From contig JAIEPP010000453.1 in assembly GCA_019748335.1 (NCBI GenBank), forward strand, positions 1 to 35,827: a stretch of DNA of 35,827 bases. The letters run 5' to 3'. This document shows positions 1-13,255 of the stretch, piece after piece (within the stretch, counting starts at the first letter, position 1; each line of letters starts with the position of its first letter). Under the pieces are notes generated by a model, which searched no databases, had not been told where the DNA came from, and saw nothing but the letters and a program-made list of their open reading frames with translations. A program made the translations under genes and the position numbers. The DNA comes from Xanthobacteraceae bacterium (GTDB lineage: Bacteria > Pseudomonadota > Alphaproteobacteria > Rhizobiales > Xanthobacteraceae).

Positions 1-899
1 CGCAGCAGCACGATCGGTGCAGAGGGCCCGGTGAGCAGCACTTCTTCCATGGGATCGACGCTGCAATAGCGCCTGATCACATCGAGATCCCTGGCCATTA
101 GCGCGAACGGCTTGGCATCGCGCTGCTTCAACTGCCGCAGCCGGGCCACCACGTCCGCCTTGGTGGCATCGCAGGCCAGCTGATACCCGCCAATTCCCTT
201 GATGGCGACGATCTCGCCGTTCTTCATCAGGCCGCCGGCAGCATCGACATCGTCCATCATCGAGAACTGGTCGAAACCAAACGGCCGCTGGTCGAACCGG
301 ATCAGCTTCGCCTTCGGACCGCAAACGTGACAGGCTATGGCTTCGGCGTGAAAGCGGCGGTCGGCCGGATTGTCGTATTCGGACCGGCAAGCCGGGCACA
401 GATCAAACGGCGCCATCGTGGTGTTGGCGCGGTCATAGGGAACGCCCCCGACGATGCTCAGCCGCGGCCCGCAATGGGTGCAATTGGTGAAGGGATAGCG
501 ATAGCGCCGCTCGAACGGATTGGCGACTTCATCCGCGCAGGCGGCGCAGACCGCCGCATCCGGCGCGACCTGGGTATGGGCGTTGCCCCCGAGGCTCTCG
601 ACAATCGCGAACTCGGTTGGAAGGCCGCCGAAATAGGGCCCTGTCTCGATCGCATCGATGCGGGCGAGCGGCGGCGGCTCGCGCCGGATCCGCGCGATCA
701 GCGCAGCAACCGCGACTTTGCTGCCAAAGACGCGAATCAGCACCCCGCTGGAATCGTTGAGCACCTCTCCGGCAAGGCTCAGGTCGCGCGCATAGCGCCA
801 GACCGTCGGCCGGAAGCCGACGCCCTGCACCCGACCGCGCACCCTGATTTCGGCCGCGACCGGAGCATCTACCGCGGCGATGGCGCTGCGGCGATTCAT
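1..899 (-). CDS. hypF: Carbamoyltransferase HypF, N-terminal part (3' end beyond window)
   Basis: Manual translation from ATG at 899: MNRRSAIAAVDAP..IRVRGRVQGVGFRPTVWRYARDL (acylphosphatase domain), then CAACADEVANPFERRYRYPFTNCTHCGPR and CPACRSEYDNPADRRFHAEAIACHVCGP zinc-finger motifs. ATGA overlap with the upstream NHL gene. Open to the window edge. Confidence 0.95.
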   Translation of the reverse strand, partial: MNRRSAIAAVDAPVAAEIRVRGRVQGVGFRPTVWRYARDLSLAGEVLNDSSGVLIRVFGSKVAVAALIARIRREPPPLARIDAIETGPYFGGLPTEFAIVESLGGNAHTQVAPDAAVCAACADEVANPFERRYRYPFTNCTHCGPRLSIVGGVPYDRANTTMAPFDLCPACRSEYDNPADRRFHAEAIACHVCGPKAKLIRFDQRPFGFDQFSMMDDVDAAGGLMKNGEIVAIKGIGGYQLACDATKADVVARLRQLKQRDAKPFALMARDLDVIRRYCSVDPMEEVLLTGPSAPIVLL

Positions 900-2098
900 G
901 ATGCTGCCTCCCACAAGAGAACGCGATTATTGCCGGCGTCAGCGACCACAAGCTGGTTCCCGCAGGCCGCAGCGCTGTAGGGCCAGCATACGCTGTCGCG
1001 GCTGGCAAAGCGCCAGCGGTTGTCGCCCTTGTCGGAAAACAGCGGTTGCCCCGCCAGCGCAATCGCCGGTGAATCCATCGCCAGGCCATCGAGCTCGAAG
1101 CCGAGCAGGCGCGAGTTCGCAGTATCGGTCACGACCAGCATGCCGCCGTGAACGGTGAGCCCATACGGCATGTTCAGGGCGCTTGAGGTCGGATAGTACG
1201 AAGCCCGGTTGTGATCGAGCCCCATGAAGTCGGCCTGGCCTATCACGAAATCGCAAGCGCAGCCGCTCGTGCGCGGAAAATTCCGCCACGCCATCACGCG
1301 GTTGTTGCCGGCGTCCGTGACGAACAGCATGCCGCTATCAACCGCGATGCCGTGTGGCCAGCGCATGCCGAGCGCGCCGCCAGCCTCGCCGGCATTGTCG
1401 TCGCGGGTGATAAAATCGCGCTGCCCAAGAACCAGATCGGCCGGCGCGCCGTTCGCCACGGGAACCGAATTCCAGATCAACACGCGGCGATTGCAGGTGT
1501 CGGCGACGATCAACTTGCCGTCGGCAATGGCGACACCATAGCACCAGTTCAAGGTCGTGGCGGTCGGCAGGCTGGCGCCGCGATTGGCGAGGCCGCCGAC
1601 AAAATCGGCCTGGCCGAGCACGACATCGGCAGGCCGGTTCGAGGTTTCGGGATAGCCGCGCCAGATCAGGATGCGGTGGTTCCAGGCGTCGGCGACCGCC
1701 AGAATGCCGTCGCTGGCCGCGACCCCAGTTGGCATGTTGAGCGTGGCGGCCCCGACCTCGCTTTTGGCGTTGCGGCCCTCACGCGAGAAATCCGGCTGGC
1801 CGATCACGATGTCGGCGTCAACCTGATCGCGCGAGGGCGGCTTGCACCAGATCATCAACCGGTGATGCCCGGTATCGCAGACGAACAGCGGACCGCTCTC
1901 GCTCGCAAGGCAGGCCCCGCGCGGGCCGAACAAAGTGTTGGCGCTGGGCACGATCGAACGCGCCAACCCGTTGGCAAGCGCCTCGCCGCCGAGCACCACG
2001 CGCGCGCCCTTCGCCGACAGCAATGGTTGCGCCACATGGTTGTCGCCCGCCCGTGGCAGGGCCTTTTGCAGACGGTTGGGGGCGAAGGAGACCTGCAT
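896..2098 (-). CDS. NHL-repeat (beta-propeller) protein of the hydrogenase locus
   Basis: Repeated units such as LFVCDTGHHRLMIW, LAVADAWNHRILIW, LIVADTCNRRVLIW, LFVTDAGNNRVMAW, LVVADAGNNRVLLW plus repeated VLGQxDF/VIGQxDF. Start taken at ATG 2098 (MQVSFAPN); the listed ORF extends to 2185. Confidence 0.9.
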   Translation of the reverse strand: MQVSFAPNRLQKALPRAGDNHVAQPLLSAKGARVVLGGEALANGLARSIVPSANTLFGPRGACLASESGPLFVCDTGHHRLMIWCKPPSRDQVDADIVIGQPDFSREGRNAKSEVGAATLNMPTGVAASDGILAVADAWNHRILIWRGYPETSNRPADVVLGQADFVGGLANRGASLPTATTLNWCYGVAIADGKLIVADTCNRRVLIWNSVPVANGAPADLVLGQRDFITRDDNAGEAGGALGMRWPHGIAVDSGMLFVTDAGNNRVMAWRNFPRTSGCACDFVIGQADFMGLDHNRASYYPTSSALNMPYGLTVHGGMLVVTDTANSRLLGFELDGLAMDSPAIALAGQPLFSDKGDNRWRFASRDSVCWPYSAAACGNQLVVADAGNNRVLLWEAAS

Positions 2099-2100
2099 GG

Positions 2101-2970
2101 CTACTTCGAAATCCTCACTTCGACGCGCGCGCCGATCACGCGCACGGCGTGCGCCTGCAATTGCACTTCCGGCGCGGTCAGGCATTCGCCGCTGGAAAGG
2201 TCATACTGGAAGCCATGATGTGGACAGGTGATGATGCCGTTTTCCACCTCGCCGTCGTGAATGGGAAGACCGAGATGCGCGCAAGCGTTCTGGAAACAGG
2301 TAACGCTGGCACCGCTGCGCGATAGCAGAACCTTTTCGCCATCGATGACGGTGGAACGTACGGCGCCATCCGGAATTTCCGACAACAGACCCGCCGCGAC
2401 CCAGCTACCCTTGTCGCCCAGCGCGAACGGACTGACGAAGCGTACGCCGCCTTCCTCGGAACCACCTAACCCCTTGACCTGAATGATATCGGTGATTTCG
2501 GGACAGGCGTCCTGAACGGCTTTCTTTACCCCGGCGTGAAACGTCAGTGCCGAAGCCGGACAACCATCACAGGCGCCGATGAAGCGCACCTCGACCGAGG
2601 GCGGCTTTACCTTGACGAGTTCGACGTCGCCGCCATGCGAGGCCAGCATCGGGCGGACGCCCTCTAGGGCGGCTTCGACGCGTTCATTTAAACTCGCCTT
2701 CACGATGTCGTGCCGCCGCAACACCGCATAGACGACCTCGTCGGCGATGGCACTCTTCATCGCGGCAAGGGCTGCCGGATCGGTTTTCAAGGCCCGGACC
2801 AACCGGCGTAACGCCTCGCCGTTCAGTTTCTCGATCGCCAGCTTGTAGGTCCCGACCGCGGCCTGCTGGTTCTCGTCCCAGGTTGCGAAGATGGCTTCCA
2901 GCCGCTCGATGTCGCCGACAAAGCCGGCAAGATCGTTTCGCATTGTCGAAGCCACATCGTGAGCGTTCAT
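2101..2970 (-). CDS. NifU C-terminal domain / Rieske [2Fe-2S] fusion protein
   Basis: NifU-like core GGDVELVKV...GACDGCPAS and Rieske motifs CAHLGL and CPHHGF in one ORF. Confidence 0.9.
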   Translation of the reverse strand: MNAHDVASTMRNDLAGFVGDIERLEAIFATWDENQQAAVGTYKLAIEKLNGEALRRLVRALKTDPAALAAMKSAIADEVVYAVLRRHDIVKASLNERVEAALEGVRPMLASHGGDVELVKVKPPSVEVRFIGACDGCPASALTFHAGVKKAVQDACPEITDIIQVKGLGGSEEGGVRFVSPFALGDKGSWVAAGLLSEIPDGAVRSTVIDGEKVLLSRSGASVTCFQNACAHLGLPIHDGEVENGIITCPHHGFQYDLSSGECLTAPEVQLQAHAVRVIGARVEVRISK

Positions 2971-3000: not shown

Positions 3001-3225
3001 TCAGAGATATTTCAGGTCCTTGAACAGATACGGCTGCAATCCGCCGCCCAGCAGCGCCGCCACTAGAGCGGCCAGCCATAACGGGACGCCGATCTTGGCC
3101 AGAACGACCAGCAGCACCGCCGTGACGAGAATCCCGATCAGGATTTGCCTGGTCGCCTTGACCCGATCCGCGAACAGCTTGCCGCGAAAGAACAGGGCGA
3201 TGGAGTTTTTTGTCATTTCCCACAT
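3001..3225 (-). CDS. Small membrane protein (74 aa)
   Basis: Hydrophobic helices ILIGILVTAVLLVVLAKIGVPLWLAALVAALLGGG; sits co-directionally inside the hydrogenase operon. Confidence 0.65.
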   Translation of the reverse strand: MWEMTKNSIALFFRGKLFADRVKATRQILIGILVTAVLLVVLAKIGVPLWLAALVAALLGGGLQPYLFKDLKYL

Positions 3226-3235
3226 TGAAGCCGCC

Positions 3236-3445
3236 TCACCCTATGATTGCGAGCACGAGGAGGCCGATCATGGTTCCCGCGACGCCGGCGAGCGGGCCGT
3301 AAAATCCTCCCAGCATCGCGGCGAGTTCATTGCCGAGAATCTTTCCTCCGACGATCATCCCACCGATCGCGCCGCCGGCGATGGAAGCCAGCGTGCCCAG
3401 GACGAAGGCGAGAAGGAGCGCCAAGGGAGTGAGAGAAATCGTCAT
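3236..3445 (-). CDS. Small Gly-rich membrane protein (69 aa)
   Basis: Two hydrophobic segments with GxxxG-like spacing (LASIAGGAIGGMIVGGKILG...GPLAGVAGTMIGLLVLAIIG); start overlaps the end of the TPR ORF. Confidence 0.7.
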   Translation of the reverse strand: MTISLTPLALLLAFVLGTLASIAGGAIGGMIVGGKILGNELAAMLGGFYGPLAGVAGTMIGLLVLAIIG

Positions 3446-4479
3446 CGTTCAAAGGCTCCTGTTGCAGATGAATTAATCGCCGGATGCGACCCGCGACTGT
3501 TGGTGGCCGGCAAGGACAATATCTCTCGCTGGGTTTGATCGACGGCCTCGGCGACGATCCGTGCTTTTTCCAGGTCGCCGCGCTCCATGAAGATCGCGCG
3601 CGCCTCACGGTAGTAGGCGTTCGCCTGCGTCAGGTTCGAGCGATTGCCAGCCTCGGGATTTTCGGGATCGTCCGGCAGATTCCACAGGCAGTTGGCCTTG
3701 TTGGAAATCGTATTGGCGTATTCCAGCGGCGTCGTTTCGCGCGTACGTACCTTCAGCGCCTCGTCGTAGGCATCGAGCGCACGCAGGTTGTTTTCGAGCG
3801 TATGGCTCGAGGATACATATTGCAGTGCGTTTCCCAGATTGTTCTGCAGCATCGCATATTCGGTCGGATGATCGATCAGGCTCACAACCTTCAGGCCTTC
3901 TTCGAAGGCCTGCACGGCGAGCGCTTCGCGCATCTTCCCGCGCTCATCCGTCATCGGCATCGACAGGAAGGCGGTAGCAAGATTGTTCTGCAGGATGACG
4001 AATTCCCGCAGGAATTTTGTCTTGGTGAAGGTCCGGAGCGCACGCTGATACGCCGAGATCGCGTCGGTGATGCGGGCGCGGCCGGCACCGGCGAGATTTT
4101 GTATCACCAGTCCGAGATTCATTTCGGCCTCGGCCAGTTCCTCCGGTTTGCCGAAATCGATCAAGACCGGAATGGATTCTTCGAACGTTGAACGGGCCTG
4201 CTCCAGCGCGGCTGTGCCCTGCTCCGGGATTGCCTGCAGCGCGGTGGCCTTGCGCGCCAGAATGCGCGCCCGCAACAACCGCATGTCTGCCGGACAAACG
4301 GTCAACGCCTTGTCGTACAGCGTAACGGCGGAATGCAACTGATCCGGTGACTTCGGCCGCTGCTGCAGGCCCATCGCAATTTCCATCAGCATTTCGGCAC
4401 GCTCAGCCGGCGTCGCATCCGCGTCGTCGGCGGCAGCAAGCGCAGCGTGGATTTCGTCTGCGACGAGACTCTTGGTCAC
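3442..4479 (-). CDS. Tetratricopeptide-repeat protein
   Basis: Repeated helical TPR units (AVTLYDKALTVCPADMRLLRARI, AISAYQRALRTF, LRALDAYDEALKVR, ANAYYREARAIF). Confidence 0.85.
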   Translation of the reverse strand: MTKSLVADEIHAALAAADDADATPAERAEMLMEIAMGLQQRPKSPDQLHSAVTLYDKALTVCPADMRLLRARILARKATALQAIPEQGTAALEQARSTFEESIPVLIDFGKPEELAEAEMNLGLVIQNLAGAGRARITDAISAYQRALRTFTKTKFLREFVILQNNLATAFLSMPMTDERGKMREALAVQAFEEGLKVVSLIDHPTEYAMLQNNLGNALQYVSSSHTLENNLRALDAYDEALKVRTRETTPLEYANTISNKANCLWNLPDDPENPEAGNRSNLTQANAYYREARAIFMERGDLEKARIVAEAVDQTQREILSLPATNSRGSHPAINSSATGAFER

Positions 4480-4558: not shown

Positions 4559-4586
4559 ATTATACGAAATGTAAACTTAGTTTACA
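4559..4586 (-). promoter_or_regulatory. Candidate internal promoter with palindromic operator (TGTAAAC-TTA-GTTTACA followed by TATAAT on the minus strand)
   Basis: Perfect 7-bp inverted repeat at 4570-4576/4580-4586 and a perfect -10 hexamer TATAAT (minus strand, 4564-4559), upstream of the TPR gene. Confidence 0.5.
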
Positions 4587-4896
4587 GTTCAAGCACGCCT
4601 GCGGCGACCAGTGCACCGCGTTCCGTTGACCAGACCACCGACAATTCCAGCGCGACATTTTCGTCGATGCCGCATTCGCGAAAGAAGTCCGGTGCATGCA
4701 CGACACGGTCGCCCGCCTTGTTGCGGAGCTTGAGGAGATAACCGCCGGCGGCGGCGTGCTTGACCGGCAAGATGCAGAGGTCCCGATCGCGGCGCAGTAA
4801 AATGACCGTATCGAGCCCGGGAAAATACCGGTCGTAGACTTCGCGGCTCAAATAGAGCGCCCCCCGTTGCAGGCTGACGGCAGATGCTGTGGTCAC
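4582..4896 (-). CDS. Conserved-looking hypothetical protein (104 aa) of the hydrogenase operon
   Basis: ORF overlaps the protease stop by ATGA (4893-4896), suggesting translational coupling; no family recognised. Confidence 0.7.
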   Translation of the reverse strand: MTTASAVSLQRGALYLSREVYDRYFPGLDTVILLRRDRDLCILPVKHAAAGGYLLKLRNKAGDRVVHAPDFFRECGIDENVALELSVVWSTERGALVAAGVLEL

Positions 4897-5381
4897 GAGG
4901 TTTCTGCTCGCGCCAGCAAGCGTGATCGAACCAGATCCTCGATGCGGTCGGAGACCTTGGCGACGGCGGACGATACGGGTTCGGAGAGGCCGATCCCGAG
5001 TTCGGTCGTCTGAACTTCGATCAGCAGCACCACCACGTCGGATGGGAATTGTTCGCGAAAGACTTTCCTGCCGGCAAACAGCGCGTGGTCCCAGCGAAAA
5101 TCGTGAAGGTTGAGAGACGGCTGGTAGCGCTGCTCAAGTTCATCCCCCGGCACTTCGAAAACGGCGCCTGGATCGGAGCCCGAACGGCACGCGTCGACGA
5201 CGATCAGCGTCTGGCAGCCGCGCGCTGCAAACATCGTCGCCATTCCGTCGGTTCCGGCGGCGAGCAGGCGTACCCTTTGCGCATCGCGACCAAGTCCACG
5301 CGCTTCCAGCCGGCGCAAAACCTCTATGCCTGACCCATCATCGAGGCGATTTGGATTGCCACATCCGATGACAACGATCAT
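4893..5381 (-). CDS. Hydrogenase maturation protease (HyaD/HupD-like)
   Basis: MIVVIGCGNPNRLDDGSGIEV N-terminus and VVDACRSG motif typical of the family; start at 5381 preferred over the listed ORF start 5426. Confidence 0.9.
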   Translation of the reverse strand: MIVVIGCGNPNRLDDGSGIEVLRRLEARGLGRDAQRVRLLAAGTDGMATMFAARGCQTLIVVDACRSGSDPGAVFEVPGDELEQRYQPSLNLHDFRWDHALFAGRKVFREQFPSDVVVLLIEVQTTELGIGLSEPVSSAVAKVSDRIEDLVRSRLLARAETS

Positions 5382-5413
5382 CTCAGCTCCCGACGGCACC
5401 ATGCAATACCCGA

Positions 5414-5644
5414 TCACACCCGCCACAGATCGCAGTACCAGTCGGGATCAACGGGGATGTTGAGTTCGGGCAGATCGCACCATTCACGGCGTGCCAGAAA
5501 ATAGATGCAGTTATCGCAAGCCTTCGTGATCCCGTCGTCTTCCACGGAATTCCGGATCAATCCGGCTATGGCGACGCGTTCCTTGATGTCACCGGTCGCC
5601 CGCATGCGATCAACCGTGACCTGGGTTGAATCAATGACGCTCAA
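5414..5644 (-). CDS. HiPIP-like small iron-sulfur protein, copy 2 (76 aa, TTG start)
   Basis: CDNCIYFLARREWCDLPELNIPVDPDWYCDLW (C-x2-C-x9-C-x14-C-x2-W). Proposed TTG start at 5644 preceded by AAGGAG with 7-nt spacing; the longer listed ORF reads into the upstream gene. Confidence 0.75.
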   Translation of the reverse strand: MSVIDSTQVTVDRMRATGDIKERVAIAGLIRNSVEDDGITKACDNCIYFLARREWCDLPELNIPVDPDWYCDLWRV

Positions 5645-5677
5645 ACCGATACTCCTTGTCGGAGCGGATGGATAACT

Positions 5678-5701
5678 GGCGAATCTGGTTTCAGATCCGC
5701 C
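5678..5701 (-). other. Intercistronic stem-loop between the two HiPIP-like genes
   Basis: GGCGAATCTG-GTTT-CAGATCCGCC: 10-bp arms with one mismatch, overlapping the stop of copy 1. Confidence 0.4.
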
Positions 5702-6002
5702 ATAAGCGGCACCACCATTCTGGTTCGACCGGCACCGCAAGTTCGGGCAGATCGCACCATTTTCGGTGCACGAGATAGTACATGCATTCGAGACAGCGTT
5801 GCTTCTCCGGCCCATAAGGGTGATCCAGAAAGCCTCCGACAACCAACTTCGCCTTCAGATCCTTGGGATCGAGCTGGCGAAGCTGGAGCAAGATATCGGA
5901 AAATTCCTTGTTGGTCTCTGGAAACGGCTCGACCTGCGTCTCGAGCCCGTTTCCAAGCATGTCGGCAATCGCCTTGAGCACTGCTCCGTTATCGGACGCC
6001 AT
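5691..6002 (-). CDS. HiPIP-like small iron-sulfur protein, copy 1
   Basis: CLECMYYLVHRKWCDLPELAVPVEPEWWCRLW, same Cys spacing as copy 2; start uncertain (ORF extends to 6062). Confidence 0.75.
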   Translation of the reverse strand: MASDNGAVLKAIADMLGNGLETQVEPFPETNKEFSDILLQLRQLDPKDLKAKLVVGGFLDHPYGPEKQRCLECMYYLVHRKWCDLPELAVPVEPEWWCRLWRI

Positions 6003-6098: not shown

Positions 6099-7697
6099 TC
6101 AGGCGGTTCGGAAGCGGGCCAACTCCTCTCCGGTCTTGGCGTCGTGGGCATGAACGGTACAGACAAGGCAGGAATCGTAGGAGCGGCAGACGTGCCCGAC
6201 TTCGACCGGGTCATGCACGTCCCTGATGGGCGAGCCGATCAAGGCCTGTTCCATCGGGCCGCGCACGCCGTCCGCTGACCTCGGCCCGACGTTCCACGTC
6301 GTCGGAGCGATGATCTGATAGTTCTTGATCTTGCCGTCCTTGACCTCGATCCAGTGACAGAGCGCGCCACGGATCGCTTCGGTAGCGCCCCAGCCGCGGC
6401 CGTCCCGTTCGGTCGGCTTGATGTACCAAGGATCGTTCAGCTTGAACTCGCGAAGCGCATGCTCGGCCTGGCGATACAGTTTCACGCCTTCATGCATGCG
6501 TGCGAAATGACGCAACATCACGCTGGCGCCTCCGAGCTTCTTGTACATTTCAAGAACCAGCGGATCATAATGCTGCCAGGATTCGCCGTGCTTGCCGCCT
6601 GCGATCAGCTGCCGGGACAGCGGTCCGGCCTCGAGACGTCCGTTTTCTTCGTGTCGCACGGCTGTCGACCATGAATACTGGCCGGCCATGTTCGTCGTGT
6701 TCTTCTGGGTCGGGATTGTGGTGCGGTCGAACGGATGCAGCCCGCCGGGTTCGTCGTACCAAGAATGCATCGTATCTTCTCGGGTATACTTCTGGTCCAT
6801 CAGCTTGAATTGGTCCGTTTTGCCGTCATAGACGCCGCTCTTCATGATCAATGCGGCATTGCGGCCGTCGATGGTCGGCTTCTGGTATTTGTCTTCGTGC
6901 GGCAGGTAACCCCATGAAACAAACTGTCCGTGGCCCCTGCCGAACTTGTCCATTCCGCAGTCTTCACTCATGCGCCAGAACATGCCGAGATCCGAATTGG
7001 CATGTTCGGGCTTCTCGTCGAGCCAGGCCTTGAAGTCGTCGTAGGTCTTGATTTCTTCGTAGCGTTCGAGCGAGCAGCCGAGCCAGATCTTTTCCATCCA
7101 GTCGCGGCGGAAATATTCCAGGATCGACCATGCCCTTGTGACGTCGGTCAAGGTAGGCGCGCACATCACGCCGCCGGGCACCATGTAGCTCGAATGCGGC
7201 CACTGGCCACCGAGCAACGCGTAGATTTCGACCGGCTTGCCGGAGATGGTGACGCCGATCTCGTAATTTGTGCCCGTGAACGGCGACCATCGCTTGACGG
7301 CCTCCTCATAGAACTTCGACTTCGAATAATTCTTGTTGGTGTAGTCGATCATGAAGAGCCCGTAGTGATGGCGCGGCAGACTCTGCAGGCTTTCAACGAG
7401 CTGACCGAGATTTCGTGCCAGGATCGCGTTGCGGGGCACTTCGGTCTGCCAGGCCGTGTCGAGCGCCCAGGCCGCGCACGTCAGATGCGACGCGCCGCAG
7501 ATGCCGCAAGCCCGCGGCGTTACAACAAGACCGGCCTGCGGATCCTTGTCGCGCAGAATGACCTCGAAGCCGCGAAACAATTCCGCCTGGGTCCAGGCGT
7601 CAACCACGACGCCGTCCTGAATGTTGACACGAACGTCGAGATCGCCCTCGACGCGGCCGACGGGTGAGATGTCGAGGGTTTGAACAGCTGAGGGCAT
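6099..7697 (-). CDS. hhyL: [NiFe]-hydrogenase large subunit, actinobacterial-type/group 1h-like
   Basis: N-terminal CGICGASHL and C-terminal DSCLVCTVH followed by a 16-residue tail (AHDAKTGEELARFRTA) expected to be removed by the protease. Confidence 0.95.
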   Translation of the reverse strand: MPSAVQTLDISPVGRVEGDLDVRVNIQDGVVVDAWTQAELFRGFEVILRDKDPQAGLVVTPRACGICGASHLTCAAWALDTAWQTEVPRNAILARNLGQLVESLQSLPRHHYGLFMIDYTNKNYSKSKFYEEAVKRWSPFTGTNYEIGVTISGKPVEIYALLGGQWPHSSYMVPGGVMCAPTLTDVTRAWSILEYFRRDWMEKIWLGCSLERYEEIKTYDDFKAWLDEKPEHANSDLGMFWRMSEDCGMDKFGRGHGQFVSWGYLPHEDKYQKPTIDGRNAALIMKSGVYDGKTDQFKLMDQKYTREDTMHSWYDEPGGLHPFDRTTIPTQKNTTNMAGQYSWSTAVRHEENGRLEAGPLSRQLIAGGKHGESWQHYDPLVLEMYKKLGGASVMLRHFARMHEGVKLYRQAEHALREFKLNDPWYIKPTERDGRGWGATEAIRGALCHWIEVKDGKIKNYQIIAPTTWNVGPRSADGVRGPMEQALIGSPIRDVHDPVEVGHVCRSYDSCLVCTVHAHDAKTGEELARFRTA

Positions 7698-7762: not shown

Positions 7763-8725
7763 TCAGACCACGAAGATGTCGTCTTCGGCCCAGGCGGGAG
7801 ATGCCGCTTTCGCTGCAGCGGTGAGTTTGATGTAACCGGCCTTGTCGACGCCTGTCGGCATGTCCTTGGGGACGCCCATCACGGTCTGCGTCTTGAAGAC
7901 GGTTCCTGGCATCAGTTCGAAGAACGGGAATTCCGGCTCCGTGCAACCCATGCAAGGCATGCCGGCCCGCGTCTTCGATGATTGTCGATTCCAGAGGATA
8001 CGGTTGCACGGCGAGTGCGTCATCGGTCCGCGGCACCCGAGGTCATAGAACAGGCAACCCTTGCGCTGGCCGAACTCGGTCGCCGAGACCTTGTAGGCGA
8101 AGTGCATGTTGCGGGTGCACCCCGTCTGCGTGAAGCTCGTGAAGAACGTCTTCGGACGCTGAAATTCGTCGAGCGACAGATCGCCGCCCCGCCCGGTCGC
8201 AACCGCGACCACGATTTGCGTGATCCAGTCCGGATGCGCCGGACAACCGGGAACGTTGATGACGGGCAATCCGGCCTTCGACTTGTAGTCGGCGCCGAGG
8301 AATCCACCGTGCTTGCGCTTGAGAAACTGCAAGCCCTCACTGTCCGACGGGTTGGGCGCGGTTGCCGGAATGCCGCCCCAGGTCGCGCAATCGCCGATGG
8401 CTACCGTATAAGCGGCAACCTTCGCGAGGTCCGCCACCCAGTCTTTCATCGGCCGGCCGGCAAAGCGATTCCATTCGCCAGTGCCGTTCGGTGCGTTGAC
8501 GACCGTGCCTTCGAACACAAAGATATCGAGCGCCATCTCCCCGGACGTGAGTGAGTTCAGCAATTTCTTCAGGTTGTCGCCGAGCTCCATGCCCAGCGAA
8601 GGGTGCCACAAGACGTTGACGCCAAAATCGGTGACGAGATCGCAGGCGCTCGGCTCCTCGGCATTGAGGAATGACATGGTATTTCCGGAGCAAGCGCCGC
8701 CTTGAAGCCACAGCAGATTGGCCAT
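7763..8725 (-). CDS. hhyS: [NiFe]-hydrogenase small subunit, actinobacterial-type/group 1h-like
   Basis: LLWLQGGACSGNTMSFL, GDCATWGG, NVPGCPAHPDW and C-terminal Cys cluster ligands; no Tat signal and no C-terminal membrane anchor. GGAGGG Shine-Dalgarno 5' of ATG 8725/8728. Confidence 0.95.
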   Translation of the reverse strand: MANLLWLQGGACSGNTMSFLNAEEPSACDLVTDFGVNVLWHPSLGMELGDNLKKLLNSLTSGEMALDIFVFEGTVVNAPNGTGEWNRFAGRPMKDWVADLAKVAAYTVAIGDCATWGGIPATAPNPSDSEGLQFLKRKHGGFLGADYKSKAGLPVINVPGCPAHPDWITQIVVAVATGRGGDLSLDEFQRPKTFFTSFTQTGCTRNMHFAYKVSATEFGQRKGCLFYDLGCRGPMTHSPCNRILWNRQSSKTRAGMPCMGCTEPEFPFFELMPGTVFKTQTVMGVPKDMPTGVDKAGYIKLTAAAKAASPAWAEDDIFVV

Positions 8726-8785
8726 CATTCCCTCCAAGCCTTGTTCAATGAAACGCCCGAACGGCGTCTTGAACTCGAGAAGAGA

Positions 8786-8800
8786 GCAAGCGGCGTGCCA
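8786..8800 (-). promoter_or_regulatory. Sigma54 -24/-12 promoter of the hydrogenase structural operon
   Basis: Minus strand reads TGGCAC-GCCGC-TTGC, a perfect match to TGGCAC-N5-TTGC, about 60-75 bp upstream of the small-subunit start. Confidence 0.88.
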
Positions 8801-9068: not shown

Positions 9069-9314
9069 CTAGCCGTGACGATTGCCGCACACCGGACACG
9101 TTACCTCCAGGAGGTATCCGTACCAGATCCCGTGACATCGGCTGCACCAGTGACCAGTTGCCTGGCGCTCCGGCAAGCCCAGCTTCCCGGACAAATCGCT
9201 CAGCCCAAGTTCCTTGAACGGCACCTTACTTCCCGCAGGAGCAACGCGCGATTGTGGGAACCGCACGATCCGGGCCTTTGAATTGCCATCGTCCGGAACA
9301 TTCTCATCGGGCAT
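9069..9314 (-). CDS. Short zinc-ribbon protein
   Basis: HWCSRCHGIWYGYLLEVTCPVCGNRHG (C-x2-C-x12-C-x2-C); start MPDENVPDDG at 9314, just after the regulator stop. Confidence 0.65.
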   Translation of the reverse strand: MPDENVPDDGNSKARIVRFPQSRVAPAGSKVPFKELGLSDLSGKLGLPERQATGHWCSRCHGIWYGYLLEVTCPVCGNRHG

Positions 9315-9336
9315 CGCGATATCCCAGCAAGGTTCG

Positions 9337-10782
9337 TCAGTTGGGTTCGTTAAGGCCGTAGCGTTTGATCTTGTTGGCGAGACCAACACGCGAAAGGCCG
9401 AGTTCGTTTGCGGCTCGGCTCTGGTTCCATCGGTGACGCGTCAATGCCTCATTCAGAACGTTCTTCTCGAGACTTTCAACCTTGTCTTTGAGAGTTGCCC
9501 CCTGCGCAACGAATCCGTTGGCCGAGCCCAATCGCTGCCGGGGTGGCGCAGCCAGGATCGCCGGTGACATATTCTTGGTGGTCAGATATTCTCCGTCCTC
9601 TGCCAATGCCACCATCCGGCGAATCTCGTTTTCGAGTTCGCGCACATTGCCGGGGAAGTCGAATCCAACAAATTTCTCCAACGCATTCGCCGAGATGCCA
9701 AGAATCTTTCGGCCGATCGCGTTGCTGTGCTTCGCGGCAAAGAATTCCGCGAGCGCAGGCACGTCGTCAGACCGATCGCGGAGCGGCGGCACCTCAAGTT
9801 CAAACCCCTTGAGGCGGAAATACAGGTCCTGACGAAACTTCCCGGCGGCCACCAGCGTGCGCAGCGGGCGGTTGGACGCTGCGATGATGCGGACGTTGCT
9901 GCTTTCGGTCTTGTCCGAACCTAGTGGCTTGATCTCACCGTCCTGCAAAAAACGAAGCAGGCTCACCTGGAACGACGGCGACACTTCCGAAATTTCATCG
10001 AGGAACACAGTCCCACCGTCGCCGGCGCGAAACAGACCGAGACGATCGGAGATGGCCCCGGTGTAGGCGCCGCGCTTATGCCCGAACAATTCCGATTGCA
10101 GCAGCTCGTCGGACATTCCCCCGCAGTTCTGTACCATCAATGGGCTGGTATGGCGGGTCGAATTGTAGTGAATCGCGCGAGCGAGCAGTTCCTTGCCGGT
10201 GCCGGTTTCCCCCTGAATCAGGATCGGCAATTCCGTTCTCGCCGCCTTGCGCGCGAGATCGCATAGTTCGGTCAGTTTTTCGCTGACATAGACCAGCTTT
10301 TCAAACCGCTGGCTCTCGGCATGCAGAGGCACGCCGGGGCGCGCATGGATGTGTATGGAATCGGCGGGGAATTTGAACTCACGCGACAGCATGCGATGGC
10401 GTCGTGCCAGTTCGCGGGATTCTAGGCCACGCTCGACGACGAGTCCGATCTGTTTGGCGTCAAGCGGTTTCCGAACGAACTGATAGATCGCCGCCGGCGA
10501 GATCGCCTGCTTCGTCAGGATCGTTTTGGCTTCGAGCGCCAGGACCCGAATAACATCGGGATGGGAGACGCGGAGGTTTGCGAGAAATTCCAGGCCGTCA
10601 CCATCGGCGCCGTGTTCAGCCAGGACGATATCGACATGCGCGTCAGATAGAGCGCTGGCCGCGTCTTCGCTGGATCGTGCCGTCAAGACCCGGTAGTCGT
10701 ACTCGTCGGACAATACGTCGGCTGTGGCGGTCCATTGAGGCCCGCCCCGCGCGACGATGAGGACCGTTCCGAGCGTTTCCAT
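9337..10782 (-). CDS. hoxA: HoxA/HupR-like sigma54-dependent NtrC-family activator with degenerate receiver
   Basis: AAA+ motifs GETGTGKELLARAIH, ELFGHKRGAYTGA, GGTVFLDEI, FPGNVRELEN, and C-terminal Fis-type HTH NQSRAANELGLSRVGLANKIKRYGL; adjacent to a hydrogenase operon with a sigma54 promoter. Confidence 0.88.
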   Translation of the reverse strand: METLGTVLIVARGGPQWTATADVLSDEYDYRVLTARSSEDAASALSDAHVDIVLAEHGADGDGLEFLANLRVSHPDVIRVLALEAKTILTKQAISPAAIYQFVRKPLDAKQIGLVVERGLESRELARRHRMLSREFKFPADSIHIHARPGVPLHAESQRFEKLVYVSEKLTELCDLARKAARTELPILIQGETGTGKELLARAIHYNSTRHTSPLMVQNCGGMSDELLQSELFGHKRGAYTGAISDRLGLFRAGDGGTVFLDEISEVSPSFQVSLLRFLQDGEIKPLGSDKTESSNVRIIAASNRPLRTLVAAGKFRQDLYFRLKGFELEVPPLRDRSDDVPALAEFFAAKHSNAIGRKILGISANALEKFVGFDFPGNVRELENEIRRMVALAEDGEYLTTKNMSPAILAAPPRQRLGSANGFVAQGATLKDKVESLEKNVLNEALTRHRWNQSRAANELGLSRVGLANKIKRYGLNEPN

Positions 10783-10871: not shown

Positions 10872-13199
10872 TCAGAATTGCCCGGCGACAGTCAGCCGGA
10901 TCGCCAGCGGCTCGACCGGATGGAGCACCCGGTCCATGACACCGGTCTGACACACCGCGGCTGGGGCGGTCGGCGCTCCGGCTACGGGAAAGCACATCGC
11001 AAAAAGAGAATCCGATTTGATCAGCGAACCATAGGCATAGGTGATCTGGTCGGATCTGCTGTTCAGCAAATTGAAGCCGTCGAGTTGCACGCGCCAGCCA
11101 TTTTCGAACCGATATCCCAAACGTCCGTTCAACAGCCCGGTCGCCGGAGAGACAAAGGCACTGTCCTCGGTCAGCGGCCGCGGCCCGAAATAGCGGTAGC
11201 GCAGGCCGGCGAACCAGCCGGTCTTCTCGCCGAGCGTAATTCCGGTGGAAGCGATCATGCTCGGTGCCCCCGGAATGTAATTACCCGGCGCATTGCCGAT
11301 CTGGGCTGCCGGAAAGCCTGCGAGCGAAGCATATAGCGCGGCCTGATCCGGATCGTCGCCCCGGAAGCGCGCATGGGTGATGGCAATATCGCCCTCAAAA
11401 CTGAGCCATGACAGTGGTCGATAGTCGTTGGTCCATTCGACGCCATAGCGCCTGCTCGGCCGGCTAGCCTTGGTATCCCCGGCATCGCCAGAGAACAGAA
11501 TCTCCGATGCAGAATCGAGCAGGAACAGGCTGACCGCGCTGGTGAGGCCGGGAATGGCCTTGGTGCGGAGACCGACTTCGGCGCCGCGCGTCTTGACCAG
11601 GAACGGCGAGGCCTGCAACGCCGCGCCATCCAGCGGCGTTTCCGTAATGGTCACTCCCCGCGCGTCGTTACTGTGAAACCCCTCGCCGGCGTTGACGAAG
11701 AACTCGACTTTAGCGAATGGCCCAAGCACCACGCCGAACTTGGGGCTGCCAATGGACGCGTTGGCGTTACCGGAGTTGGCCGGTGTGAAGAAGGAATTGA
11801 CCGAAGCCTGATAGAAATCGCCGCGCCAGCCGATATTCGTTCGCAGCCAGTGGGTCCAGTGCAGCGTGTTCTGCACGAACAGGCCAACGCTGCCTTCTTG
11901 CACAGCATCGCCGCGAATGGGCGACAGGAACCGACGCTGCACGGTGTTGTTGAGGCCCAGGTTGATATCGTCGTAGCGGCTCTGCACGCCGATTTCGGTT
12001 TCCACCGGCAGACCGGCGAACTTGCTCTTGAACGTGTGCGACGCGTTAATGCCACCCAGTATCCGATCATCATGCTGATGAAACTGATCGCCATTGACGG
12101 GATCGGAGAGGAAGTAAGTGAAATTATTCCAGAGGTTGAGCGAACTCTTGATGACATAGAAGTTCGTCTTGGAACTGCCGGTGTCATCGGTTCGCGCCCA
12201 TTGCCCGGACAGAGAAAAGCGATTGGAGTTGCCGCCATCACTGGGATCGAGCGCGCCATAGAGACCAATTTCGCCGGACGCGACCGCCCGCGAGGGAATC
12301 TGATCGGTGGAATTCCATTTGTTCGCGTAAGCCATTCCGGTCAGCGAAAAGCCATCCTCCGCCGTGCCCTGGCTATAGCGCATGACGCCATTCAACTTGC
12401 GCAGGTTGTCGGGGTAATCCCACGGACCGTTGTAAGCATTGACCTCGGCGGCAACCAGCAACGTACCCTCGCCCAGTTTGGTCGAGGTGACACCGAGGCC
12501 CCGGCGATAGCCGAAACTTCCTACCGTAACCGATGCCATGGTCTTGATGCGGTCGAGCAGGTTGATATGGACCGAGCCGACGGAGGAAAAATCGCCTTCG
12601 TCGGCAAAATATGGGCCCTTGCGGATATTGACCGAGCCGATCAATTCCGGGATCAGGAAGTTCAGGTCAGCATAGCCCTGTCCGTGCGCGTGGGTGCGCA
12701 TATTGACCGGCATGCCGTCGATCGAAATCGCCAAATCGGTGCCGTGATCAAGGTTGAATCCACGCAAAAAATACTGGTTGGCCTTGCCGTCACCGCTGTG
12801 CTGCGTGACGATCAGGCCGGGCACGACTTCGAGCGCCTCAGCCGGTCGGGAAACCGGCCGCGCACTGACTTCGGCGCCGCTGACGGTCTTTTCGCTCGAC
12901 GAGGTCGTCCGAGCCTGGACACTCGCATCCAGTCCAGCGTTAGGGATCGCGCCAACGCCAGCGCCGATCGCGGCACCAGCCCGGGTCGCTCTCCTGTTGC
13001 TGATGCCACCATTCGCTTGTTTTTGACGGGTAGCTCGGCGGCGTTCGGGGGCTAACACTTCGATGGTTGGAAGCCTCGTTGCTCCGTCAGGAGCATTCTG
13101 AGCCGAAGCCGCAGATCCGATGAAGATCAATCCGGTGAGGATGGCCCCACCCAGCAGCAACTCCCGCCTACGTCTGGATGAGATTGGCAGCTTACGCAT
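10872..13199 (-). CDS. TonB-dependent outer-membrane receptor, probable nickel receptor
   Basis: Signal peptide (ELLLGGAILTGLIFIGSAASAQ), plug domain (PAEALEVVPGLIVTQHSGDGKANQYFLRGFNLDHGTDLAISIDGMPVNMRTHAHGQGYADL), C-terminal beta-barrel ending AIRLTVAGQF. Start chosen at MRKLPIS (13199); ORF extends to 13250. Nickel specificity inferred from the NikR box. Confidence 0.88.
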   Translation of the reverse strand: MRKLPISSRRRRELLLGGAILTGLIFIGSAASAQNAPDGATRLPTIEVLAPERRRATRQKQANGGISNRRATRAGAAIGAGVGAIPNAGLDASVQARTTSSSEKTVSGAEVSARPVSRPAEALEVVPGLIVTQHSGDGKANQYFLRGFNLDHGTDLAISIDGMPVNMRTHAHGQGYADLNFLIPELIGSVNIRKGPYFADEGDFSSVGSVHINLLDRIKTMASVTVGSFGYRRGLGVTSTKLGEGTLLVAAEVNAYNGPWDYPDNLRKLNGVMRYSQGTAEDGFSLTGMAYANKWNSTDQIPSRAVASGEIGLYGALDPSDGGNSNRFSLSGQWARTDDTGSSKTNFYVIKSSLNLWNNFTYFLSDPVNGDQFHQHDDRILGGINASHTFKSKFAGLPVETEIGVQSRYDDINLGLNNTVQRRFLSPIRGDAVQEGSVGLFVQNTLHWTHWLRTNIGWRGDFYQASVNSFFTPANSGNANASIGSPKFGVVLGPFAKVEFFVNAGEGFHSNDARGVTITETPLDGAALQASPFLVKTRGAEVGLRTKAIPGLTSAVSLFLLDSASEILFSGDAGDTKASRPSRRYGVEWTNDYRPLSWLSFEGDIAITHARFRGDDPDQAALYASLAGFPAAQIGNAPGNYIPGAPSMIASTGITLGEKTGWFAGLRYRYFGPRPLTEDSAFVSPATGLLNGRLGYRFENGWRVQLDGFNLLNSRSDQITYAYGSLIKSDSLFAMCFPVAGAPTAPAAVCQTGVMDRVLHPVEPLAIRLTVAGQF

Positions 13200-13255
13200 C
13201 GCAACCGCCTGCCTACCATTATTGCCTAAGCAAAATTCGAGAGCTCTCACATCTG

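Follow-up and report, generated by a model that had tools for sequence, protein, structure and literature searches.

The hand-over of electrons from a group 2a [NiFe]-hydrogenase to respiration has been solved structurally for Mycobacterium only, where menaquinone is reduced directly at the small subunit HucS of the Huc enzyme and is delivered via the HucM stalk (PMC10017518). Consumption of H2 by M. smegmatis also needs HucE and HhyE, which are putative Fe-S electron-transfer proteins, HhyE belonging to group 1h and carrying two CxxC motifs at its end (PMC6883350). In Nostoc the genes asr0689-alr0693 form part of an extended hyp operon, and two transmembrane segments have been reported for asr0689/asr0690 (PMC2408588). 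In Acidithiobacillus ferrooxidans DN052_04130 is annotated as a putative high-potential iron-sulfur protein (HiPIP) beside hupLS, the protein has been seen in proteomes, and it was suggested that the electron link to ubiquinone that was still missing is either DN052_04130 or the Rieske protein (PMC7735108). Group 2a includes a Proteobacteria-associated radiation (PMC7784904), and a group 2a hydrogenase has been published for Methylocapsa aurea KYG; one of the loci compared below (L039) is from the same species and strain.

Here we analyze a window of 35,827 nucleotides from a Xanthobacteraceae bacterium (contig JAIEPP010000453.1), which carries on its minus strand a hydrogenase operon that we assign to group 2a and that runs from an activator gene through to an NHL-repeat protein gene (Table 1). 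Two small proteins with four cysteines each, CysA and a short second copy, are encoded in this operon. A previous sequence-only reading had taken the enzyme for a group 1h hydrogenase. That label is wrong, since the large subunit scores 640 bits against Huc from M. smegmatis (7uus) and 127 bits against group 1h HofG (5aa5), the corresponding values for the small subunit are 525 bits against Huc and 118 bits against the group 1h enzyme, and the NifU-Rieske partner is of the HucE type, unlike the HhyE of group 1h. Judged by these sequence comparisons the window hydrogenase is of group 2a (Huc/cyanobacterial type): its subunits are nearest to Huc, the operon contains both a Rieske-NifU HucE and an NHL protein, and there is no Tat signal.

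Table 1 Assigned features of the hydrogenase operon in the window, in the direction of transcription.
Feature	Coordinates	Strand	Remarks
Sigma-54-dependent response-regulator-type activator (HupR-like)	9337..10782	-	
106-aa protein	9069..9389	-	zinc-ribbon-like C-x2-C/C-x2-C at C-terminus
Sigma-54 promoter match, TGGCAC-N5-TTGCT	8785..8800	-	perfect; ~57 nt before hucS
HucS/HupS small subunit	7763..8737	-	no Tat signal
HucL/HupL group 2a [NiFe]-hydrogenase large subunit	6099..7697	-	PF00374
CysA, HiPIP-like four-Cys	5691..6002	-	103 aa; ATG start; first gene after hucL
CysB', short divergent second copy	5414..5644	-	76 aa; TTG start; AAGGAG at 5657-5652
HycI/HupW-type hydrogenase maturation protease	4893..5426	-	
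Conserved 104-aa operon protein	4582..4896	-	synteny
TPR-like protein, position and type of alr0691	3442..4479	-	weak TPR match; synteny; PMC2408588
Small hydrophobic protein, asr0689/asr0690 position	3236..3445	-	synteny
Second small hydrophobic protein, asr0689/asr0690 position	3001..3225	-	synteny
HucE, NifU and Rieske [2Fe-2S] domains	2101..2970	-	PF01106 1.6e-22; PF00355 7.8e-16
NHL-repeat protein, alr0693 type	896..2185	-	

The promoter match upstream of hucS, TGGCACGCCGCTTGCT, is the single mismatch-free sigma-54 match in the window and is accompanied by a neighbouring sigma-54 activator gene. Searches of Pfam, NCBIfam and the PDB gave no match for the zinc-ribbon-like 106-aa protein, the gene of which is conserved ahead of hucS across most loci from the clade that carries the Cys genes. 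Outside the operon, a gene for a TonB-dependent receptor (10872-13250) adjoins the hydrogenase regulator, and the region 14725-35719 holds CoA ligases, enoyl-CoA hydratases, short-chain dehydrogenases and thiolase-like and CoA-transferase-like ORFs; from the ORF translations it looks like a catabolic gene cluster.

The two consecutive short ORFs described in the sequence-only reading are real and lie, as described, on the minus strand between the large subunit and the protease. Nucleotide differences between the window and its relatives are concentrated at third codon positions, with dN/dS values of approximately 0.03-0.06 in comparisons of CysA with four relatives and of 0.06 in that of the second copy with its counterpart from locus L011, and we take both ORFs to be genuine genes under strong purifying selection. 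The motif C-x2-C-x9-C-x14-C-x2-W is carried by CysA and the short copy alike; the earlier description was right about the motif being shared by both ORFs, while its spacing "x9-W-C" has to be corrected to "x8-W-C". The first cysteine is preceded by 69 residues in CysA and 42 in the second copy, as had been estimated. Together with their relatives the two proteins make up one family, in which the C-x2-C-x9-C-x14-C frame does not vary, all four cysteines being kept in 139 of 139 members, and with a near-invariant C-terminal WRI/WKI. AlphaFold models both proteins with high confidence (pLDDT 94.7 for CysA and 91.5 for the second copy), and the N-terminus of CysA is a well-predicted helical segment. 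A search for homologues among phage proteins gave no match.

For the distribution of the family, one genome per species was scanned, which produced 170 relatives, and the best 80 loci were compared for gene order. In these best 80 of 170 the order activator-HucS-HucL-CysA-(CysB)-protease is found throughout, as far as the contigs extend, except that the activator was undetected in two (L037 and L082); CysA is present in all 80 and CysB is absent from 12. The 80 loci span Alpha-, Beta- and Gammaproteobacteria, Acidobacteriota and Nitrospira moscoviensis. The genes for the TPR protein, the two hydrophobic proteins, HucE and the NHL protein can also be found ahead of the activator and in the opposite orientation, with the HucS-HucL-CysA-(CysB)-protease block intact (L027, L035, L036, L054, L065, L076, L085 and L086, comprising several Gammaproteobacteria and a Mariprofundus MAG).

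So that the choice of loci did not depend on the Cys genes, a search was also run with HucL only. A Cys gene was found next to hucL in 26 of 26 loci selected in this way with a HucL at least 69% identical (18 from the order of the window organism, 2 Nitrospirota, 5 Gammaproteobacteria and 1 Acidobacteriota), and still in 22 of 22 after removal of the starting genomes that had originally been reached via Cys genes. No Cys gene was present in six other group 2a loci with HucL identities of 54-57% (Mycobacterium, Thermus, Sulfobacillus, Runella, Hymenobacter and one acidobacterial locus) or in 11 more distant loci with 37-43% identity. All 88 Cys-bearing tips of the HucL tree fall in one clade (support 0.99), which fits the Proteobacteria-associated radiation of PMC7784904. 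The genes are rare: among 299 genomes sampled from the phylum two have them, one being that of the window itself. The proposed tie to the hydrogenase is supported by the 26 HucL-selected loci; the expectation that the pair would accompany related hydrogenases holds in its own clade and fails for the other group 2a branches examined. We regard it as near certain that the Cys pair is dedicated to a single branch of the hydrogenase as its partner, and the sequence data suggest that it is probably a dedicated iron-sulfur partner of the Proteobacteria-clade group 2a hydrogenase.

The CysA sequences form a single clade (support 0.78) with Trp or Tyr before the last cysteine, a position held by Ser in nearly all CysB sequences. 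The second copy of the window is of neither type: it shares a long branch with the copy from L011, is missing ~30 residues at the N-terminus and has Tyr before the last cysteine. This 76-aa form was found only in the window and in L011 (2304-2531), where it replaces the usual 105-aa CysB, and outside these two loci both copies are ~105 aa. Because the short copy is so confined, the difference in length is an oddity of one lineage, and the previous suggestion that the unequal N-termini reflect distinct docking roles is not borne out.

The PROSITE-type signature of HiPIPs has Gly-[YW] ahead of the last cysteine, and HiPIPs are usually, not universally, exported by the Tat pathway. In the Cys family a CxxC comes first and an aromatic residue follows the last cysteine in 139 of 139 members, and the departure noticed earlier in both window copies, Trp in place of the signature Gly, likewise holds for 139 of 139. 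In contrast to the export of HiPIPs, inspection revealed no signal peptide in either Cys protein, nor in the hydrogenase small subunit (MANLLWLQGG...), in agreement with the sequence-only reading. The HMM match to the HiPIP family that had been looked for did not materialize: both window proteins miss PF01355 at E<=1, a PF01355 search of the window's own genome gave no match at the hydrogenase locus at E<=10, and a PDB sequence search with the Cys family profile found no HiPIP below E 10. More members match PF01355 than any other Pfam family, yet these are 6 of 105 relatives, all sub-threshold (best E 0.085).

When the Cys profile was aligned to eight HiPIPs with hhalign, a score of 28.2 was obtained (E 1e-4, probability 58%), while controls in which the cysteine columns were fixed and all others shuffled had a mean of 11.9 and a maximum of 20.2, none of 200 reaching 28.2. 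A Foldseek search with the AlphaFold model of the second copy against 350,542 PDB chains placed two HiPIPs at ranks 1 and 2, namely 3h31 from Rhodothermus marinus (probability 0.94, TM 0.52, with a weak E of 0.12) and 1noe (E 3.7). The CysA model had no PDB match, and the viral libraries gave nothing useful. The HiPIP-like character claimed before is therefore supported by a profile similarity beyond the cysteine frame and by the top two Foldseek ranks of the second copy. A possible link between the two families is a genuine HiPIP in L095 (1501-1674; PF01355 E 4e-21), which has the same C-x2-C-x9-C start as CysA and matches the Cys family profile with E 2e-4 in a small ORF set. From sequence and models together we consider it likely, with about three chances in four, that the Cys proteins are HiPIP-like Fe-S proteins; they are probable distant relatives of HiPIPs, not certified members, and the pair is probably best described as HiPIP-like but divergent, lacking a signal peptide and extended by a helical N-terminus.

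The role that we propose for them is as follows. CysA and the second copy would reside in the cytoplasm and be either divergent members of the HiPIP fold or related to it. Each would most likely bind one [4Fe-4S] cluster through its four cysteines and have an added helical N-terminus that is full in CysA and shortened in the second copy of the window. The most likely docking site of the pair would be HucSL, from which the electrons gained from H2 would be handed on in parallel with, or in the direction of, HucE and the quinone pool. We give an even chance to this picture of a HiPIP-like pair docked on HucSL and relaying electrons, and we are equally divided as to whether electron transfer is the main role of the pair. 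The A. ferrooxidans locus tags bear on the same proposal: 04130 and 04125 lie by hupL, the NifU-Rieske gene is 04095 and 04090 lies beyond, and since tags in steps of five fit the operon order, DN052_04130 is almost certainly the CysA orthologue on the strength of gene order. Several observations count against a relay. The high potentials at which HiPIPs usually operate are a poor match for electron delivery to quinone; CysB is lacking in 12 of 80 loci; and the missing PF01355 match, the CysA model without a PDB match, the weak Foldseek E of 0.12 and the exchange of Gly for Trp all speak against the HiPIP character. Furthermore, K212, Y229 and Y301 of HucS (Huc numbering), which contact the quinone in Mycobacterium Huc, are invariant in the Cys clade and variable in distant group 2 enzymes, and direct quinone reduction at HucS may, from these residues, persist in the clade. 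Since the quinone-site residues are conserved, an extra relay is not strictly needed.

Because the Cys genes are positioned ahead of the protease gene, a role in maturation is a serious alternative, though a somewhat unlikely one. CysA/CysB would then help to build HucS or HucL, either by supplying or shielding Fe-S clusters in the presence of O2 or by serving as reductant, and would resemble in role the rubredoxin HupI/HoxR and HupGHIJK of other uptake hydrogenases. Their genes are flanked by those of the large subunit and its protease, and the operon has many accessory genes, which suits such a role, as does the proposal that extra genes of the same operon type in cyanobacteria encode small-subunit maturation factors (PMC2408588, PMC3126725). 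However, HucSL of this kind is also matured where a group 2a locus has no Cys genes, and a HiPIP-like character points to electron transfer rather than to scaffolding. The four cysteines might also hold zinc, the likeness to HiPIPs being superficial, a reading which concerns the metal and hence overlaps with maturation and with the structural role considered below. Four-Cys sites of this size are often zinc-binding, and the window copies have no significant HiPIP database match; against this, no zinc family matched convincingly, the cysteines have aromatic neighbours as in HiPIPs and the shuffled controls fall short of the HiPIP score. Identity with a zinc family was accordingly set aside, the sequence-only reading having named a confident match of this kind as evidence against its own proposal, and we consider zinc binding improbable.

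HucM (DUF1641, PF07849) was found in none of 25 genomes with Cys genes and in three of five records without them, the M. intracellulare copy matching HucM. With HucM not seen in any of the 25, its place might be taken by CysA/CysB, which as structural subunits would arrange HucSL, attach it to the membrane and have a structural metal site (Fe-S or zinc), and the well-predicted helical N-terminus, which HiPIPs do not have, would suit such adaptors. We nevertheless judge this quite unlikely: the Bacteroidota records have neither HucM nor Cys genes, so there is no simple either/or, CysA shows no similarity to HucM (hhalign probability 0.9%), and the anchor might be provided by small membrane proteins from other parts of the operon. 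A bolder version of the relay, which we think unlikely, is that the Proteobacteria clade swapped the HucM quinone stalk for a HiPIP-derived cytoplasmic pair taking electrons from HucSL; if true, this would mean that HiPIPs have a cytosolic variant and that atmospheric-H2 oxidation can be coupled to respiration by a second route.

The hydrogenase partnered by the pair is of the type able to scavenge hydrogen from air, and the strictly linked, hitherto unnamed Fe-S-like pair occurs in methanotrophs, Nitrospira, rhizobia and marine Proteobacteria. With the HucM stalk not found in the searched genomes of this clade, the Cys pair makes the question of group 2a electron hand-over testable, and it would add a cytoplasmic variant with a helical domain to the HiPIP fold. 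A role as electron carrier was put forward earlier for A. ferrooxidans (PMC7735108), where DN052_04130 received the same proposal as made here for the Cys pair; new are the strict linkage across the clade, the old A/B pair, the departure from the signature, the evidence on the fold and the absence of HucM.

Compared with HiPIPs (PF01355, with the short forms PioC, 6xyv, and R. marinus 3h31), the Cys family shares a CxxC followed by two cysteines, a hydrophobic residue ahead of the last aromatic-Cys and a C-x2-aromatic end, and HiPIPs are the top two, though weak, structural matches to the model of the second copy; it differs by Trp for Gly, by having no export signal, by the extra helical N-terminus and by scoring below the family cut-off. 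HucM of M. smegmatis Huc (7uus, 7utd) is also encoded by a small extra gene of group 2a operons that is found in some branches only, yet it has no sequence similarity to the Cys proteins and no Cys site. HucE, with its NifU and Rieske domains, is encoded in the window besides the Cys pair, and like HucE/HhyE the pair would be putative Fe-S electron-transfer proteins of the operon. Cyanobacterial loci lack the pair, as judged from published gene maps. Nostoc asr0689-alr0693 (PMC2408588) are the counterparts of the two hydrophobic, TPR, NifU and NHL genes of the window; an equation of the Cys pair with asr0689/asr0690 was rejected, as asr0689/asr0690 have their counterparts in the two small hydrophobic genes, and the pair is not among the five Nostoc genes.
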